Source: Acidobacteriota bacterium (GTDB taxonomy: Bacteria > Acidobacteriota > Blastocatellia > RBC074). Taken from it: 64,000 bases of DNA. Below, in pieces: positions 18,988-56,213 of this stretch. Under the pieces are notes generated by a model. That model searched no databases, had not been told where the DNA came from, and saw only the letters and a list, made by a program, of their open reading frames with translations. Location of the stretch: the NCBI GenBank assembly GCA_016196035.1, contig JACPYM010000024.1, positions 1 to 64,000 of the forward strand. Direction: 5' to 3'. Numbering within the stretch: the first letter of the stretch is position 1; every line of letters starts with the position of its first letter. Both the position numbers and the translations under genes were made by a program.

Positions 18988-21357
18988 TCAGCGGCTGCCT
19001 GGTTGCTGCGGTTGTGCCGGGCTTTGATAAAGAAAGCGCTGGAAGCTGGTGAAGACCTTGCGAATCTGCCGCGCCTCGCCCAAATCGTTGACGGCATAAG
19101 GGATGGAGTTGTTGTATTTCAGCCTGAGCAACGGCGTCAGCTTTTCCGGCGCGAGTTCCTCCACACCGACGCTCACGTAATGTGAAAGCACGAAATCCAG
19201 AAAGACCTGCTGCTTGGTGGTAAAGCGCGTGCTGATTTCGACGCGGGCTTTTTCTGACCGTTCAGCGCGGGTGAGTGGCGCCAGCGCATAGGCCACATGT
19301 GCCAGCACGTCGAACAAATCGCTTTTTTCAGCGTCAATCACCTTTTGCATTTCGGCCATTTGCTCTGGGCCGAATCCCTTTTCGGCCAAACCTTCCAGCA
19401 AGCGAGCGCGGGTTTCCGGCTCGCTCCAAATCTCGCGCAACTCCTGTTCGTTTTTGAAGTATTCAGGCAGTCTGCCATACAGCATTTCCAGGAATTGCTG
19501 CGCCGACATCGGCGTGCCATCGGGATGCCAGAAACTCGTGACCATCATGTGCTGGATGTTGCGCTCTTTGCCGTCGGCCAGCCTGACCTTGATCTTGGGT
19601 GGACGCGGACGAGGTTCGCCATCGCCGCCGTCTGATGGCTGGCGCTCTCCGCCACGCGGACGCTCGCCGATTTCCCCTTCGTCTTCGCCTTCAATCGTGT
19701 TGTCTTCCGGTTCGCCATCCCATTCCGGATCGCTGAAATGCTGGTGCGCCCGCACAAAGTCATAAATCGTAAAATAAGCCTTGCCGTCAAAGAGCCGCGT
19801 GCCGCGTCCGATGATCTGCTTGAATTCGATCATCGAATTGATCGGACGCAGCAGCACGATGTTGCGAATGTTGCGCGCATCCACGCCGGTCGAGAGTTTT
19901 TGCGAAGTCGTCAAAATCGTCGGAATGGTTTTCTCGTTGTCCTGAAAATCGCGCAGGTGCTGTTCGCCCAATGCGCCGTCGTTCGCCGTCACGCGATGGC
20001 AATAGTTCGGGTCTTTGCTGGTTTTGAGCTGCCGAATCTGATTGATGTAATCGCGCACGGCCAGCGCGTGGTCTTGCGTAGCGCAAAAGACCAGCGTCTT
20101 TTCCTGCTGGTTGATCTGCTCCATGAAAATCTGGATGCGTTTCTTTTCGCGTTCGGGGATTTCGATGACGCGGTTGAAATCGCTTTCGACAAAGCGCCGC
20201 CCGGTTTCGATCTCGCCTTCGATCAAGCGGTCGTCCGGCGTGTAAACGTATTCGTCCAGCGTGGTCGAAATCTGTTTGACCTTGAACGGCGTCAGAAAGC
20301 CGTCGTTGATGCCATCTTTCAGCGAATAGACATAAACCGGCTCGCCGAAATAAGCATAGGTGTCAATGTTGTCCTTGCGTTTGGGCGTCGCCGTCAAACC
20401 AAGCTGCACCGCCGGGGCGAAGTAAGTCAGGATGTCGCGCCACGTGCTTTCGTCGTTCGCGCCGCCGCGATGGCATTCGTCAATGACGATGAAGTCGAAA
20501 AAGTCCGGCGGGTATTCGCCAAAATACGGCGAAGGCTGCCCATCAACTATCGGCCCGCTCATGAAGGTTTGAAAGATCGTGAAGAAGAGACTGCCGTTTT
20601 TGGGTACGCGACCTTTCTTTTTGATGTCGCTCGGTTCGATACGCACCAGCGCGTCTTCGGGAAAAGCCGAGAAAGCGTTGTATGCCTGATTCGCCAGAAT
20701 GTTGCGGTCAGCCAGAAACAGAATGCGCGGACGGCGCGACGCTTCGCGGCTCAAGTTCCAGCGGCTGTGAAAGAGCTTCCACGCCAGTTGAAAGGCGATG
20801 AAAGTTTTGCCCGTGCCCGTCGCCAGCGTCAGCAAGATGCGTTCGCGATTGTCGCTGACGGCTTCCAGCACGCGCTCGACGGCGATGTCCTGATAATAGC
20901 GCCCCTGAAAATATCCGCCGCGATCTTCAAACGGAACCGCTGCGAACCGATCGCGCCAGTTGTTTTCGGTGGCAAAGGTCATCTGCCACAACTCTTCCGG
21001 CGTCGGGTAATGCGGCTGCTCGCCTTCTGTCCCCTCGTGCATGTCTACGGCGTAAATGCCCTGGCCGTTGGTCGCGTAGCTGAACCGGACAGCCAGTTTG
21101 CCCGCGTAATCTTTGGCCTGGGCGACGCCTTCGGTCAGCAACGAGTCCCAGGCTTTGGCTTCGATAACGGCCAGTTTGTGGTTGCGGAATTCCAGCACGT
21201 AATCGGCACAAAGCGCTTTGCCGCGCCGCCCGTGGCCTTCGATACGACCCAGCGTGATGGGGTATTCGCGGCGAATGCGGCTGCCCGCGACAACGCCCCA
21301 ACCGGCAGTTTTCAGCGCCGGGTCAATGTGTTCGGCTCTGGTTTCGGCTTCGTTCAT
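18988..21357 (-). CDS. hsdR: Type I restriction enzyme, R subunit
   Basis: 789 aa. An N-terminal PD-(D/E)xK nuclease has Asp52, Glu66 and Lys68 (ADYVLEFRNHKLAVIEAKAW). The SF2 motor follows: Walker A LATGTGKTFIAFQL, DEAD-like VIDECHRGG, motif III LTATPKR, motif IV/V TLVFCATQD and TGVDARNIRNIVLLRPI, motif VI IIGRGTRLFDGK. The C-terminal part matches the EcoEI-type R C-terminal domain. It translocates DNA and cuts unmodified DNA with HsdM/HsdS. An acidic, Gly/Arg-rich linker (about residues 555-590) is notable. It lies downstream of hsdM-hsdS but is separated from them by 1.9 kb of repeats and a transposase gene. Confidence 0.95.
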   Translation of the reverse strand: MNEAETRAEHIDPALKTAGWGVVAGSRIRREYPITLGRIEGHGRRGKALCADYVLEFRNHKLAVIEAKAWDSLLTEGVAQAKDYAGKLAVRFSYATNGQGIYAVDMHEGTEGEQPHYPTPEELWQMTFATENNWRDRFAAVPFEDRGGYFQGRYYQDIAVERVLEAVSDNRERILLTLATGTGKTFIAFQLAWKLFHSRWNLSREASRRPRILFLADRNILANQAYNAFSAFPEDALVRIEPSDIKKKGRVPKNGSLFFTIFQTFMSGPIVDGQPSPYFGEYPPDFFDFIVIDECHRGGANDESTWRDILTYFAPAVQLGLTATPKRKDNIDTYAYFGEPVYVYSLKDGINDGFLTPFKVKQISTTLDEYVYTPDDRLIEGEIETGRRFVESDFNRVIEIPEREKKRIQIFMEQINQQEKTLVFCATQDHALAVRDYINQIRQLKTSKDPNYCHRVTANDGALGEQHLRDFQDNEKTIPTILTTSQKLSTGVDARNIRNIVLLRPINSMIEFKQIIGRGTRLFDGKAYFTIYDFVRAHQHFSDPEWDGEPEDNTIEGEDEGEIGERPRGGERQPSDGGDGEPRPRPPKIKVRLADGKERNIQHMMVTSFWHPDGTPMSAQQFLEMLYGRLPEYFKNEQELREIWSEPETRARLLEGLAEKGFGPEQMAEMQKVIDAEKSDLFDVLAHVAYALAPLTRAERSEKARVEISTRFTTKQQVFLDFVLSHYVSVGVEELAPEKLTPLLRLKYNNSIPYAVNDLGEARQIRKVFTSFQRFLYQSPAQPQQPGSR

Positions 21358-21434
21358 AACGTCTTTGAGTTATGTTCCAACGGGGCATTGGCACATGGGT
21401 TCAGCGCGCAGATTGCGCCACGTCTTCATTCAAA

Positions 21435-21647
21435 GCTCCAACGGGGCAAGAGCCAATAGCCAGGGGCAGAGGCACAGCCGCCGCCCCCGAAAACAAGAGT
21501 CGTTATCCCGCCAAGCCCTGAAAGGGCGCAAGCGCAAGCCAATGGATGTGGCTCAAGCCCCTTCAGGGCTAGGTATATTTCTCGCCCTGTTTCCCAGGGC
21601 TTCGCTTTGCTTCGCCCTGGGCTATAGGCTTGTCGCCCCGTTGGGGC
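21435..21647. repeat. RAYT-associated composite palindromic element, copy A
   Basis: 213 bp in the gap between hsdR and the transposase. Left end GCTCCAACGGGGC, right end GCCCCGTTGGGGC; in between come CCAGGGGC, AAGCCCTGAAAGGGCG and its inverted partner, and a CCCAGGGC / GCCCTGGG hairpin. Each is a short palindrome with a 3-nt loop or a facing pair. An extra isolated left end (TCCAACGGGGC) lies at 21375. It is degenerate compared with copies B to D. Confidence 0.8.
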
Positions 21648-21701
21648 TTGACTCCAGGCTGTTAGCTTGTCGCTCCGGCCTTGCCAACCAACACGCGCGG
21701 T

Positions 21702-22154
21702 TCAATCCCAAACATACCGCTCATCAATCTCAATGCCGTGTTTCTGGCACAACAACCGGTACTCATCCTGAAACGCTGTTTGGCCGTGATGTTGTTTCTG
21801 GTTGGCAATATAACTTTTCACTTTCTCAAGTCCGGATTGGCTTACCGAAAACGCGCCATATCCCGCCTGCCATTGAAAGGCTTGCCACGCCGCGCCTTTG
21901 GTCTTGATCCATTTTGACGAACTGCTTTTCACATCTTCGACAATACTGGCAACGGTTTTGGTGCGCGACAGAACAACCAAAGCATGAATGTGATCCGCTG
22001 TTCCGCCAATTAACAGCGAAGGGCATTCACAGCGCCGAAAAATGCCACCCAGGTAATCGTGCAAATCCAGTTCAATGTCCGCCGTAATGAATGGTTCACG
22101 ATGCTTCGTGCTGAACACCAGATGAATCAGAATCGAAGACAAGGATTGTGGCAT
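21702..22154 (-). CDS. IS200-like/REP-associated tyrosine transposase (RAYT), Y1 HUH family
   Basis: 150 aa, full length for an IS200/IS605 TnpA. The HUH metal site is His55-Ile-His57 (GTADHIHALVVLS), and the catalytic tyrosine is Tyr115 in KVKSYIANQKQHH, the usual YIxNQxxHH pattern. Strand 1 (ILIHLVFSTKHREPFI) is also typical. Such enzymes nick and rejoin single-stranded DNA at hairpins. No TnpB partner is present. It lies between copy A of a palindromic element and copies B-D, the arrangement seen for domesticated transposases that move REP sequences in trans, although an ordinary IS200 copy without clear ends is possible. Confidence 0.88.
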   Translation of the reverse strand: MPQSLSSILIHLVFSTKHREPFITADIELDLHDYLGGIFRRCECPSLLIGGTADHIHALVVLSRTKTVASIVEDVKSSSSKWIKTKGAAWQAFQWQAGYGAFSVSQSGLEKVKSYIANQKQHHGQTAFQDEYRLLCQKHGIEIDERYVWD

Positions 22155-22224
22155 GTCTGCTCCTTCGTGAAAGGATTCTTGTTTGGTGATGAGGGGCGGG
22201 CGCAGAATAACACAAGTTCCAACA

Positions 22225-22371
22225 CCTCAACCGTCCCAAAGTCCCAATGCCCCAACCAACGCCCCAACCAACGCCCCCACCGTCCCAGAATTCCAATGCC
22301 CCAACCAACGCCTCCACCGTCCCAGAATTCCAATGCCCCAACGAACGCCCCCGTCGTCCCAGAATTCCAAT
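22225..22371. repeat. 37-bp tandem repeat, three full units plus partial
   Basis: Units of 37 bp starting CCCCAACCAACG and ending GAATTCCAATG are repeated three times with few changes, preceded by shorter partial units (CCCCAACCAACG twice). The last unit runs directly into the left end of element copy B (GCCCCAACGGGGC), and the unit start resembles that end. There are no unique spacers, so it is not a CRISPR array. Confidence 0.85.
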
Positions 22372-22576
22372 GCCCCAACGGGGCATCAGCCAACAGCCAG
22401 GGGCAAAGGCGAAGCCGACGCCCCTGGGGAAGGCCAACAAAATTCCCTCAAGCCCTGAAAGGGCGCAAGCCTACCGTTGTGCTGACGCCCTTTCAGGGCT
22501 TGGCGTTCGCATTCGCCGATGTCCCAGGGCTACGCGTTGCTCCGCCCTGGGCTGTAGGCTGTGGCCCCGTTGGGGC
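22372..22576. repeat. RAYT-associated composite palindromic element, copy B
   Basis: 205 bp with perfect end palindromes GCCCCAACGGGGC (22372-22384) and GCCCCGTTGGGGC (22564-22576). The ends plus adjoining bases form imperfect terminal inverted repeats (AGCCAACAGCCAGGGG against CCCTGGGCTGTAGGCTG). It is followed 13 bp later by a broken hsdS 3' end. Confidence 0.88.
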
Positions 22577-22589
22577 AGGCAGCGTAGTT

Positions 22590-22677
22590 TCAAAGCTGCC
22601 CCGTGAACGCTTGATGCAGCGCGATCTTTTCAATTCGTCCAGCGCCGCGAGCTTTTGTTGGTAGATGGATTCAAGGT
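22590..22677 (-). pseudogene. Fragment of an hsdS 3' end (remnant 1)
   Basis: On the minus strand the frame reads LESIYQQKLAALDELK, identical to the C-terminus of the intact HsdS, and then shifts by one missing base; with that base restored it would end SLLHQAFTGQL and a stop. Only the last 28 or so codons exist; no upstream target-recognition domain is present. Copies B and C of the palindromic element lie on either side. Confidence 0.85.
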
Positions 22678-22708
22678 GTATGCCACGCATCCACGCCACG
22701 ACTGTTCT

Positions 22709-22920
22709 GCCCCAACGGGGCACCAGCCAATAGCCAGGGGCAAAGGCGAAGCCGACGCCCCTGGAAAGAAAACCAACGAAATTCCCCAAGCCCTGAAAGG
22801 GCGCAAGCGCAAGCCAACGGTTGTGCTGACGCCCTTTCAGGGCTTTGTCTGTCGCTCTGCCATGTCCCAGGGCTGCGCGTTGCTCCGCCCTGGGCTGTAG
22901 GCTGGTCGCCCCGTTGGGGC
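22709..22920. repeat. RAYT-associated composite palindromic element, copy C
   Basis: 212 bp, ends GCCCCAACGGGGC and GCCCCGTTGGGGC, same internal order as copies B and D. The right end directly abuts the stop codon of hsdS remnant 2. Confidence 0.88.
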
Positions 22921-22921
22921 T

Positions 22922-23009
22922 TTACAACTGCCCCGTGAACGCCTGATGCAGCAGCGATTTTTTCAACGCGTCCAGCGCCGCGAGTTTTTGTTGGTAGATG
23001 GATTCGAAG
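22922..23009 (-). pseudogene. Fragment of an hsdS 3' end (remnant 2)
   Basis: The minus strand encodes FESIYQQKLAALDALKKSLL, then HQAFTGQL and a TAA stop, 28 codons matching the intact HsdS C-terminus (which ends HQAFTGEL). Upstream of this the similarity to hsdS ends abruptly within a few bases. The reading frame is intact, so the loss of the gene body is probably more recent than for remnant 1, or the tail has been repaired by recombination. Confidence 0.87.
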
Positions 23010-23042
23010 CAGTGGCAACGCCATCCACGTTAGCACTTCTTT

Positions 23043-23251
23043 GCCCCAACGGGGCCTGAGCTAATAGCCAGGGGCGGAGCAACGCGTAGCCCCTGGCATG
23101 ACGACGCCTCATTTACCCAAGCCCTGAAAGGGCGCAAGCCTACGGTTGTGCTGACGCCCTTGCAGGGCTTGGCGTTCTCTTTCGCCGCTCCGCTGTCCCA
23201 GGGCTTCGCATCCGCTCCGCCCTGGGCTGTAGGCTGTGGCCCCGTTGGGGC
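23043..23251. repeat. RAYT-associated composite palindromic element, copy D
   Basis: 209 bp, same ends as B and C, located 14 bp beyond the stop of the intact hsdS. The series element-tail-element-tail-element-hsdS repeats with a period of about 330-345 bp. Confidence 0.88.
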
Positions 23252-23265
23252 GGGGAGCGTGGCCT

Positions 23266-24465
23266 TCATAGTTCCCCCGTGAAGGCTTGATGCAATAACG
23301 ATTTTTTCAATTCGTCCAGCGCCGCGAGCTTTTGCTGGTAGATAGATTCGAGGCGTTGGGTTTCTTCGCGTAGAGCGTCAAGTTTAGCGACAACATCTCT
23401 CTGGGCTGGAAGTGGTGGCAAGGGCACGGTGAGTTGCGAGAAGAAGCCAAGACTTAAATTGGCTCTTGCACTATCAACCTCGTTGTCATGCAGAATATCC
23501 CGAAAGACCGGAGAATTTAACAAATAGGTCAGATAGAAGTTGCTGAGCAACATCGGTTCACAACGAATCAGGCAAACCGCTTGATTGATATTAGCGATTT
23601 CCTCCAAATCAAAGATTGCCGTTCGTCCTATAGACGCGCCAACGATGTTGGTTAGGACGTCGCCTTTTTGAAGAATTGACTTTTTATCCTTCGCATTGAA
23701 CTTCTCTTCAACATACTTTGGCTTGGTCATCAGCAATTGATACTCACCGACGTTCTCACTGGTGACAAACAGCACGCCGGGCTTTTCGACGTAATCTATT
23801 CCTTGCCATTTTGGCGATGAACCTTTGGTGATGCGTTCGCACAAGTCTCCCAATCGTTTCTCCACCCATCCCTCACCGCGCATCGTGAAGACGGATTGCA
23901 GGTGGCTTTCAAACAGCGCACGCGCGTTCTGGCGGTTCTGTTCGGCATTGGCTTTGGCGGTGCCGATGCCGTCAAACGCTTCGTCGAGGATGCCGACAAT
24001 CCGCTGCTGTTCGGAGAGTGGCGGAAGCGGTATCTCAAACTGACTCAGTGTCTCGCCGGTGAAGTGCTGAATGCCTGCGCCATTGAAATGCTGCTTCAAC
24101 GTTCCATCAAGATCGCAAGCGTACAGGTAGTAAAGCATCCACTTGCTGTGCTCAGCCTGATAGAAGCGAACTCGATGGAGCGCCTTTTGAAAGTAGATCG
24201 GCTCATCCTGATCCCAAATCGCCGCGCGTCCCGGATAGCCGCCTTCGCAAATCAGCAAATCGCCTTTGATGGCGGTGTATTTGGCTGTTTCTTCGGGCAA
24301 GAAACGCATCTCAGACACATCCGATAGATCAAACCCAAACCAGCGGACATTGAGGTTTCGCAGATACGGCTTTGGCTCACCTTTGTTCTTCGCTTTGTCG
24401 AGCATCTTGCCAAGTGAGTGCTGGGCGATTTCGCTGACCTTCTTACGTTGCCAACCCGCTTTCAT
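23266..24465 (-). CDS. hsdS: Type I restriction-modification specificity subunit
   Basis: 399 aa with two target-recognition domains. TRD1 (about 1-160) ends in the conserved FEIPLPPLSEQQRIVGILDE helix start; TRD2 (about 200-360) ends in LTVPLPPLPAQRDVVAKLDA, with matching coiled-coil spacers. The C-terminus is LESIYQQKLAALDELKKSLL followed by HQAFTGEL. It selects the bipartite DNA target for HsdM and HsdR. Its ATG overlaps the hsdM stop by 4 bp (ATGA). The 3' end and the element after it are repeated twice downstream as remnants, so the locus may have held alternative specificity genes. Confidence 0.95.
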   Translation of the reverse strand: MKAGWQRKKVSEIAQHSLGKMLDKAKNKGEPKPYLRNLNVRWFGFDLSDVSEMRFLPEETAKYTAIKGDLLICEGGYPGRAAIWDQDEPIYFQKALHRVRFYQAEHSKWMLYYLYACDLDGTLKQHFNGAGIQHFTGETLSQFEIPLPPLSEQQRIVGILDEAFDGIGTAKANAEQNRQNARALFESHLQSVFTMRGEGWVEKRLGDLCERITKGSSPKWQGIDYVEKPGVLFVTSENVGEYQLLMTKPKYVEEKFNAKDKKSILQKGDVLTNIVGASIGRTAIFDLEEIANINQAVCLIRCEPMLLSNFYLTYLLNSPVFRDILHDNEVDSARANLSLGFFSQLTVPLPPLPAQRDVVAKLDALREETQRLESIYQQKLAALDELKKSLLHQAFTGEL

Positions 24466-25916
24466 AACAACCCCCGAATCGTTTCCAACACTTCCGCACT
24501 CTCCACATCCAATGCTGCAATCTCATCCATAATTTCCTGCGGGCTGCGGTGCGCGACTGCTTCGCCGCCGTTGGGGCTCTTGACCGAAAGATCAAAGGTC
24601 GCCGAGTCAATGCTGGCGGCGTCCACGCTCCACGATTTGGGCGAATCGGCAAAGCTCTGTTGCAGCGCGACGAATTCCTGCAAATCGTCATCATTAAGCG
24701 GATTGGTCTTGCCCAGATTGCGGCCCGGTTCAAGCTGATAAAACCAGACCTTGCGCGTCGGTGCGCCTTTCTCAAAAAACAGCACGACGGTTTTGACGCC
24801 TGCGCCCTGGAACGTGCCGCCGGGGCAATCCAGCACCGTGTGCAGGTGGCAGCTTTCCAGCAGCAGCTTGCGCAAGCTGACCGAAGCGTTGTCCGTATTC
24901 GACAGAAAGGTGTTTTTGATGACGATGCCGCCGCGTCCGCCCGCGCGCAAAATCTTGATGAAATGTTGCAGGAAGAGGAACGCCGTTTCGCCCGTGCGGA
25001 TGGGGAAGTTCTGCTGCACTTCCTTGCGCTCTTTGCCGCCGAAGGGCGGATTGGCCAGCACCACGTCGTAGCGGTCTTTTTCCTGAATGTCGGCGATGTT
25101 TTCGGTCAGCGTGTTGGTGTGGATGATGTTGGGCGCTTCGATGCCGTGCAGGATCATGTTCATGATCGCAATGACATACGCCAGCGACTTTTTCTCTTTG
25201 CCGAAAAAGGTGTTGGTTTGCAGCGTTTCCAACTCGCTGGTTTTCAGGTTCGGCTTGGCTTTCAGGTAATCAAAGGCTTCGCACAAAAAGCCCGCCGAAC
25301 CGCACGCGCCGTCATAAATGCGTTCGCCGAGGCGCGGCTGTGTCACCTGAATCATCGCGCGAATCAGCGGACGCGGCGTGTAATATTCGCCGCCATTGCG
25401 TCCGGCGTTGCCCATGTTTTTGATCTTGGCTTCATAGAGGTGCGACAGTTCGTGTTTTTCGGTCTGCGAACGAAAGCGCAATTCGTCAATGTGATCAATG
25501 ATCTCGCGCAGGTTGTACCCGCTCTGAATCTTGTTTTTGATCTCGCCGAAAATCTCGCCGATCTTGTATTCCAGCGTGTTCGGCCCGGTGGCTTTCTGCT
25601 TGAAGCCGTGCAGGTACGGGAACAGCTTCAGGTTGACGAAATCGCGCAAATCATCGCCTGACAATGCCGCGTTGTGATCGAGCTTGCCGCTGGCATCTTT
25701 CGGTGCAGCCCAACTTTCCCAACGATAGGCATCGTCGAGGATGAAGCTGTAAGGCTTGCCTTCCAGTTCGGCTTCGGTGGCTTTGTCCTGTTCCAGCCCG
25801 TCCAGATATTTCAGGAACAGCAGCCACGAGGTCTGTTCGGTGTAATCAAGTTCGGTGGTGCAACCCGCTTCTTTGCGCAGGGTATCGTCAATGTTTTTGA
25901 ATGCTTGTTCGAACAT
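24462..25916 (-). CDS. hsdM: Type I restriction-modification DNA methyltransferase
   Basis: 484 aa. The N-terminal helical HsdM domain (about 1-140, EQTSWLLFLKYLDGLEQDKA) is followed by the N6-adenine methylase: SAM motif I IYDGACGSAGFLCEAFDYL and catalytic motif IV VVLANPPFGGKERKE, and GEYYTPRPLIRAMIQ before motif I. It methylates adenine in both half sites with HsdS and protects from HsdR. It is first in the hsdM-hsdS pair. Its coding region is complete; no stop or shift was seen. Confidence 0.96.
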   Translation of the reverse strand: MFEQAFKNIDDTLRKEAGCTTELDYTEQTSWLLFLKYLDGLEQDKATEAELEGKPYSFILDDAYRWESWAAPKDASGKLDHNAALSGDDLRDFVNLKLFPYLHGFKQKATGPNTLEYKIGEIFGEIKNKIQSGYNLREIIDHIDELRFRSQTEKHELSHLYEAKIKNMGNAGRNGGEYYTPRPLIRAMIQVTQPRLGERIYDGACGSAGFLCEAFDYLKAKPNLKTSELETLQTNTFFGKEKKSLAYVIAIMNMILHGIEAPNIIHTNTLTENIADIQEKDRYDVVLANPPFGGKERKEVQQNFPIRTGETAFLFLQHFIKILRAGGRGGIVIKNTFLSNTDNASVSLRKLLLESCHLHTVLDCPGGTFQGAGVKTVVLFFEKGAPTRKVWFYQLEPGRNLGKTNPLNDDDLQEFVALQQSFADSPKSWSVDAASIDSATFDLSVKSPNGGEAVAHRSPQEIMDEIAALDVESAEVLETIRGLL

Positions 25917-34203: not shown

Positions 34204-34325
34204 CCTGGGTACGCACGCTTCCCAGCGTGCGGCTTGGCATGAGACGGATAGATGCTGAAAGGAAACCCCACCGGCATTTGTCTGTCTCATGCCAAGCCGC
34301 ACGCTGGGAAGCGTGCGTACCCAGG
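34204..34325. repeat. Perfect 42-bp inverted repeat
   Basis: Arms 34204-34245 and 34284-34325 are exact reverse complements over 42 bp, with a 38-nt loop. It lies between the SDR start and the VWA gene stop. Such perfection implies recent formation or selection. The sequence is not shared with the other hairpins here. Confidence 0.95.
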
Positions 34326-56032: not shown

Positions 56033-56213
56033 AAGCCCTGAAAGGGCGACATTCAATAGCCCAGGGCAACGCCCTGGGTTCCGTTTACCAAATAATTCAA
56101 GCCCTGAAAGGGCGTAATTCATACGCCTATTTCGCCCTTTCAGGGCTTGAGAAATTCCGGCTCTCCTCACCAGGGGCGTTGCCCCTGGTTATTAAATTTC
56201 GCCCCGTTGGGGC
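56033..56213. repeat. RAYT-associated composite palindromic element, copy E (rearranged)
   Basis: 181 bp between queF and the DHH gene. It contains AAGCCCTGAAAGGGCG twice, the inverted CGCCCTTTCAGGGCTT, the hairpin CCCAGGGC / GCCCTGGG, the hairpin CCAGGGGC / GCCCCTGG and the right end GCCCCGTTGGGGC, but the left end palindrome is missing and the module order differs from copies A-D. It lies 33 kb from the transposase. Confidence 0.8.

Follow-up and report, generated by a model that had tools for sequence, protein, structure and literature searches.

The transposase gene in the 64,000-nt stretch of Acidobacteriota DNA analysed here (the window) encodes an enzyme of TnpA-Y1 subclass 1.2, and together with the palindromic elements around it the gene probably forms a REPtron-like system, of a type that earlier work had not described for this subclass, in which the enzyme would have moved the elements in trans in the form of single-stranded hairpins. 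The anatomy of the elements, their recurrence, the matching of the two arms at each locus, the co-divergence of arms and enzyme, the dispersal of the elements in the genome and their presence or absence at orthologous intergenic sites were all observed directly. A first-pass annotation of the same DNA had proposed a new REP family with its own enzyme. The evidence supported a repeat family that has a Y1 enzyme of its own, REPtron-like and extending well beyond the locus; the RAYT class and the REP foot did not hold.

The locus and its enzyme

The tnpA reading frame is intact and lies between copy A on one side and copies B to D on the other (Table 1), as the first-pass annotation had described for four copies of about 210 bp. 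The four copies are 205 to 213 bp long and almost symmetric. From either end inward, an element consists of hairpin A (GCCCCAACGGGGC), about 10 to 11 nt ending in AAYAG or ATAG, hairpin B, about 20 to 25 nt, hairpin C (AAGCCCTGAAAGGGC) and a short centre, followed by C', B' and A'. In the window copies, hairpin B is CCAGGGGC...GCCCCTGG or CCCAGGGC...GCCCTGGG, with long, partly nested loops. Each copy therefore holds four inner hairpins (B, C, C' and B') rather than the three counted earlier. The 13-bp terminal palindromes are exact except at the left end of copy A, which deviates (GCTCC...). The GTAGG that had been likened to a REP tetranucleotide is part of the hairpin B foot as read from the opposite strand (AYAG-CCCAGGG); across the family the foot is [A/T]TAG instead of GTAG. 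Folded as single-stranded DNA, copy C reached -71.3 kcal/mol. The fifth copy, thought to be rearranged, is complete, with one arm ending in GCCCTGAAAGGGC in place of GCCCCAACGGGGC.

Table 1. Features of the transposase locus and of the dispersed element in the window
Feature	Position	Strand	Basis and remarks
tnpA, Y1 HUH transposase, TnpA-Y1 subclass 1.2, 150 aa	21702..22154	-	H55, H57, W95-Q96, Y115, Q119, H122-H123; Pfam, NCBIfam, alignments, AlphaFold2 model
Element copy A, A-B-C::C'-B'-A' inverted dimer	21435..21647	.	RF01687-like half 21593-21648, 28.3 bits, below gathering score
Element copy B	22372..22576	.	RF01687-like half 22523-22577, 21.8 bits
Element copy C	22709..22920	.	z -8.2 for the single-stranded DNA fold (against shuffles); RF01687-like half 22866-22921, 24.6 bits
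Element copy D	23043..23251	.	RF01687-like half 23197-23252, 23.3 bits
Fifth, dispersed element, complete	56033..56213	.	RF01687 (Acido-Lenti-1) match 56034-56078 (-), 48.1 bits
Two additional hsdS 3' ends (22584-22682, 22917-23015) between element copies	22584..23042	-	Repeat-family comparison; kept in G006
3.5 imperfect 37-bp tandem repeats with GCCCCAAC, between tnpA and copy B	22207..22379	+	Repeat-family comparison; looks like a decayed arm end

Copies B to D are a tandem amplification in which each unit carries about 130 bp of the hsdS 3' end, so that element plus hsdS end recurs with a period of about 335 bp. We infer that element arrays beside genes grow via tandem duplication. In the window, tnpA lies between whole dimers, unlike the single-arm bracketing of the general scheme described below.

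The surrounding genes (window 18988-25916) form a complete type I restriction-modification operon (hsdM, hsdS and hsdR), with tnpA and the elements between hsdS and hsdR. The order hsdR, tnpA, element array, hsdS, hsdM recurs in G006, a genome of another genus in the same family, and the hsdM DNA is 93% identical. The tandem amplification with the hsdS 3' end between the copies is present in both genomes. A pattern search placed all six CCCCAACGGGG sites of G006 at the orthologous tnpA locus. The generic pattern CCCCAACGGGG, run over 297 genomes of the phylum, was too family-specific and was informative mainly for the source genome (G000) and G006. The last 99 bp or so of hsdS are present in three copies interleaved with the elements (window 22584-23359), again in both genomes, and these copies are a possible recombination substrate at the end of the specificity gene.

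The window TnpA matched the Pfam model PF01797 (Y1_Tnp) with 84.5 bits and passed the NCBIfam IS200 model (61.1 bits, cut-off 55), while it failed the NCBIfam model REP_Tyr_transpos (19.6 bits, cut-off 80). Alignments confirmed the HUH motif and Tyr115 noted earlier and gave the motifs DHIH, WQ and YIANQKQHH and a short C-terminal tail. Y---Q--H was found in all 124 relatives tested, and the window enzyme lacks the Y---NP motif of RAYTs. In an AlphaFold2 model (pLDDT 89.6), the predicted fold had its best PDB matches in the TnpA proteins of ISDra2 and IS608 and matched the RAYT structure 4er8 much more weakly.

Quentin et al. 2018 (PMC6006769) defined the motifs of TnpA-Y1 subclass 1.2 and set it apart from IS200 (subclass 1.1) and RAYTs (class 2). 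The window enzyme has the features of subclass 1.2: Y---Q--HH, DH[IV]H, WQ, a length near 148 aa, the specific conserved C-terminal tail, low copy number and low identity between paralogues. The near-identical multiple copies and the Y[IV]ENQ without HH of subclass 1.1 are lacking, as the paralogues are 36 to 67% identical and HH is present. The enzyme is a TnpA-Y1 of subclass 1.2, and the RAYT (class 2) label is wrong. The RAYT identity failed on its defining features, the NP motif, the NCBIfam model and the GT[AG]G foot.

Inverted arms around subclass 1.2 genes

The source genome (9.6 Mb) contains 14 Y1 genes, seven of which belong to subclass 1.2. The six other subclass 1.2 enzymes include no near-identical copy of the window TnpA, which is therefore not one copy of a multi-copy insertion sequence. 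All seven genes are flanked by composite palindromes, the family of which varies from gene to gene. The GCCCCAACGGGGC family is common only to the window gene and the C117 paralogue, which encode the closest enzyme pair (67% identity).

The arrangement was then followed in 80 subclass 1.2 loci from Acidobacteriota, Verrucomicrobiota, Planctomycetota, Bacteroidota, Armatimonadota, Fibrobacterota and others. Perfect hairpins (stem of 7 or more, loop of 3 to 8) occurred at 5.9/kb within 150 nt of the gene and at 0.70/kb beyond 1.5 kb, an 8-fold excess over background; their density in distant intergenic DNA was 1.31/kb. Hairpins were present in 112 of 149 flanks, compared with 232 of 1,368 far windows (p 1e-47). 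AAC or GTT loops were found in 64 of the 210 near hairpins and in at most about 3 of the 306 far ones, and the foot [A/T]TAG stood directly 5' of the stem in 30/419 near and 3/611 far cases. The GT[AG]G foot was not enriched (GTAG, 3/419 near and 12/611 far; GTGG, 1/419 and 4/611).

When the upstream flank was compared with the reverse complement of its own downstream flank, the median local score was 55, against 20 for other loci, and the own-flank inverted match exceeded the 99th percentile of control pairs from distant windows in 57 of 69 loci. Thus, the gene lies between two inverted, locus-specific arms. Most of the 80 loci and all seven in the source genome are bracketed in this way by arms of one grammar: hairpin A, a spacer ending in [A/T]TAG, hairpin B, about 20 to 25 nt, and hairpin C, which is nearest the gene. 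An example from Bacteroides xylanisolvens reads AAGGCTgaaAGCCTT-ccattatatag-CGTAGGGCatcGCCCTACG-...-AAGCCCTGAAAGGGC-tnpA-...inverted; besides the local array, this genome has no more than three partial copies dispersed elsewhere. In a control of only 14 flanks, classic IS200-like and other Y1 genes had 0.43 hairpins per 300 nt, compared with 1.71 for subclass 1.2. A search of plasmids and phages for full-length relatives returned only 2 plasmids and no phages.

Arm similarity rose with enzyme identity across 124 loci. At 60 to 70% enzyme identity, 39% of the pairs shared arms (score of 40 or more), compared with 0.2% of pairs below 40% identity, and windows 1 kb from the same genes were similar in 0% of pairs at 60 to 70% identity. 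The Mantel r was 0.42 for pairs below 70% identity, and 0 of 999 permutations were as high. Such co-divergence is expected from a cognate pair moving as a unit, and not from chance palindromes or host structures. That enzyme and element form a cognate pair is very probable.

That arms and gene travel together, while the DNA 1 kb off does not follow, would also be seen with an ordinary IS200-like insertion sequence, in which the arms are the ends, the whole moves in cis as a unit and the dispersed copies are internal-deletion MITEs. The IS200 model that the enzyme passes and its predicted fold, nearest to ISDra2 and IS608 TnpA, are consistent with this explanation as well. We consider it unlikely, since the paralogues are so far from the mean intragenomic identity of 99.4% in classic subclass 1.1 (PMC6006769) and the arms are inverted triple-hairpin arrays, whereas IS200 has small subterminal hairpins.

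Dispersed elements and the Acido-Lenti-1 motif

The dispersed elements are gene-less, with the same pair of arms fused head to head, and we liken their relation to the tnpA locus to that of a MITE to an insertion sequence or of a REPIN to a RAYT. The 13-bp end GCCCCAACGGGGC, pointed out in the first-pass annotation, occurs 47 times in the source genome and its reversed control 0 times; the copies are dispersed over the genome and not confined to the neighbourhood of hsdS. Similarity between dispersed copies ends at hairpin A. In an unselected 1.26-Mb sample, arm families of subclass 1.2 recurred at 25 scattered positions, usually as head-to-head arm pairs, and 12 of the 25 were intergenic by a crude ORF mask (10% expected). 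A detector built on clusters of three perfect hairpins was too strict and returned 8 in 1.2 Mb.

Inverted-repeat dimers of every type number 106 in the same sample of the source genome (L229-L288). Many intergenic inverted-repeat families of the genome, such as CCTGGGTACGCACCGCTTCCAGCGTGCGG, TCCGTCTGTTCCGTTATTTCCGT and CTCCGTGCCTCTGTGGC, are unrelated to the subclass 1.2 arms; examples lie at 34265, 43160, 51950 and 30350 in the window. Because palindromes, including families with no known enzyme, are common in this genome, the weight of the argument rests on the cross-phylum data, and adjacency within the genome itself is weaker evidence. In a single control genome without the enzyme (G024), no inverted-repeat dimer was found in 0.4 Mb save a run of N.

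Two features of individual copies were also recorded. At G000:C22:186372-186666 (L060), another inverted-repeat element (TAGTACTCCATCAAGC...GCTTGATGGAGTACTA) has inserted within hairpin B' of one element copy, and intact copies elsewhere are the empty sites of this nested insertion. A recent subfamily (L058, L063, L064, L069 and L072), 82 to 94% identical where measured, has additional inverted repeats (GTAACTRCTCA) at its termini, beyond hairpin A, and the B arm CCCGGTGCAACGCACCGGG.

The Rfam model RF01687 (Acido-Lenti-1, gathering score 37) covers the B-A half of an arm. At the tnpA locus, all four copies scored below this cut-off (21.8 to 28.3 bits), and the match in the fifth copy is the only one in the window to exceed an Rfam gathering score. 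Several dispersed copies of the source genome pass the model (37.6 to 40.6 bits), and the genome has 98 matches in total. When 20 tnpA loci of subclass 1.2 were searched against Rfam at E up to 5, RF01687 accounted for 19 of the 25 matches, at nine loci and in some cases less than 100 nt from the gene.

Acido-Lenti-1 was listed as a motif without a function and is classed as an sRNA (Weinberg et al. 2010, PMC2864571), and a 2026 paper described its function as still little known, tentatively reading it as regulatory (PMC13298647). Our literature search returned no paper tying Acido-Lenti-1 to subclass 1.2 or to any transposase. The likely explanation of the matches is that the motif represents a DNA module of transposase-associated elements, a reading we prefer to that of an independent sRNA gene.

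Among relatives, RF01687 was present in 19 of the 23 genomes having the gene and in 6 of the 14 without an intact gene (p 0.027, with kinship ignored). The first-pass annotation had held that copies in relatives lacking the enzyme would weaken the link; such relatives mostly lack an element detectable with RF01687, yet these six have one. No intact subclass 1.2 gene was found in G002, G005, G009, G036 and G037, and G027 has only a gene fragment; some of the gene-less genomes with copies are incomplete assemblies. RF01687 without the gene requires gene loss, incomplete assembly or another driver. Conversely, G014, G028, G032 and G035 have the gene and no RF01687 match, and their arms are likely too diverged for the model.

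Three near-complete two-contig genomes of one genus gave the sharpest contrast, although it represents a single evolutionary event: the gene is present in G025 and G029, with 46 and 50 RF01687 matches, respectively, whereas G021 has no gene and 0 matches. At an orthologous intergenic site, the two genes lie about 45 nt apart in G021, whereas G029 holds an array some 640 nt long that includes two RF01687 matches and G025 a longer array with six. For the element family of the window, orthologous sites lacking the element were found in relatives, with flanks too diverged for exact junctions or a target site. At C1:226187-227121 of G025 (L425), RF01687 units form a near-regular direct array with a period of about 170 bp, interleaved with a second palindrome family (GCGGGCATCCTGCCCGC); the copy number differs between G025 (six) and G029 (two).

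These comparisons bear on the idea that the palindromes are RNA or DNA structures maintained by the host (terminators, mRNA stabilisers or supercoiling sites), among which the transposase inserted or by which it was captured. The sRNA entry of Acido-Lenti-1 (PMC2864571), the frequent intergenic position of the elements and the copies kept in some relatives without the gene are in keeping with it. Nevertheless, host structures leave unexplained the inverted, locus-specific arms that bracket the gene, the co-divergence of arms and enzyme across phyla and the absence of elements at orthologous sites of relatives, and we regard this explanation as improbable.

Relation to known systems and significance

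A true class 2 RAYT/REP system has the same architecture, a palindrome-flanked enzyme with dispersed inverted pairs, and the window enzyme has WQ at the position that RAYTs use for the guide (PMC6006769). Such a system is very improbable here, given IANQKQHH without an NP motif after Y115, the REP_Tyr_transpos score far below its cut-off, the lack of enrichment of the GTAG foot and the much weaker match of the predicted structure to 4er8. Equally improbable is an array that serves hsdS variation, with the repeated 3' ends and palindromes as specificity-switching recombination sites: three hsdS 3' ends do lie among the elements and are kept in G006 with a different hsdS, but no alternative hsdS target domains were seen close by, the elements at other places in the genome have no relation to hsdS, and simple unequal crossing over explains the tandem array.

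The REPtron-like reading shares with RAYT/REPtron and REPIN systems (Nunvar 2010, PMC2817692; Bertels and Rainey 2011, PMC3116915) a hairpin-flanked single-copy Y1 enzyme, dispersed inverted pairs and a locus-specific cognate repeat, the gene being flanked by palindromes of its own dispersed family. It differs in the enzyme class, in the absence of a GTAG/GTGG foot and in its three-hairpin arms (A-B-C), which have an [A/T]TAG foot at B and are inverted around the gene. The IS200/IS605 elements IS608 and ISDra2 have the closest fold to that modelled here, presumably with the same HUH/Tyr chemistry, and their subterminal hairpins are recognised as single-stranded DNA; in the present system there is no tnpB beside the gene, no near-identical multi-copy insertion sequence, and the composite ends are much larger.

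By analogy with IS608, ISDra2 and the Escherichia coli RAYT, an HUH transposase that is present as a single copy, resembles IS200 but has an HH tail, and lies between two inverted arms would recognise foot and hairpin in single-stranded DNA on the lagging-strand template, cleave through Tyr115 and join copies at new sites in trans. Mobilisation of gene-less elements by the enzyme is likely. A broader proposal, which in our judgement may or may not hold with about equal chance, is that subclass 1.2 and its triple-hairpin arms constitute a third, phylum-spanning class of domesticated single-stranded DNA transposase system, in addition to IS200/IS605 and RAYT/REP, that uses a separate [A/T]TAG guide code, and that such repeats across Acidobacteriota, Planctomycetota, Verrucomicrobiota and Bacteroidota, including Acido-Lenti-1, are its products.

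In the reference classification, subclass 1.2 was listed with no REP and mostly from Cyanobacteria and Bacteroidetes (PMC6006769). Here, the enzymes have composite palindromic arms and occur in Acidobacteriota, Verrucomicrobiota, Planctomycetota and more. The finding supplies a candidate substrate for an enzyme subclass that had been left without one, in phyla where REP-type systems have hardly been studied, and it gives a testable explanation for Acido-Lenti-1. Since the sequence family of the arms varies from locus to locus, these loci offer a natural code-breaking set for hairpin-guide recognition by HUH transposases.
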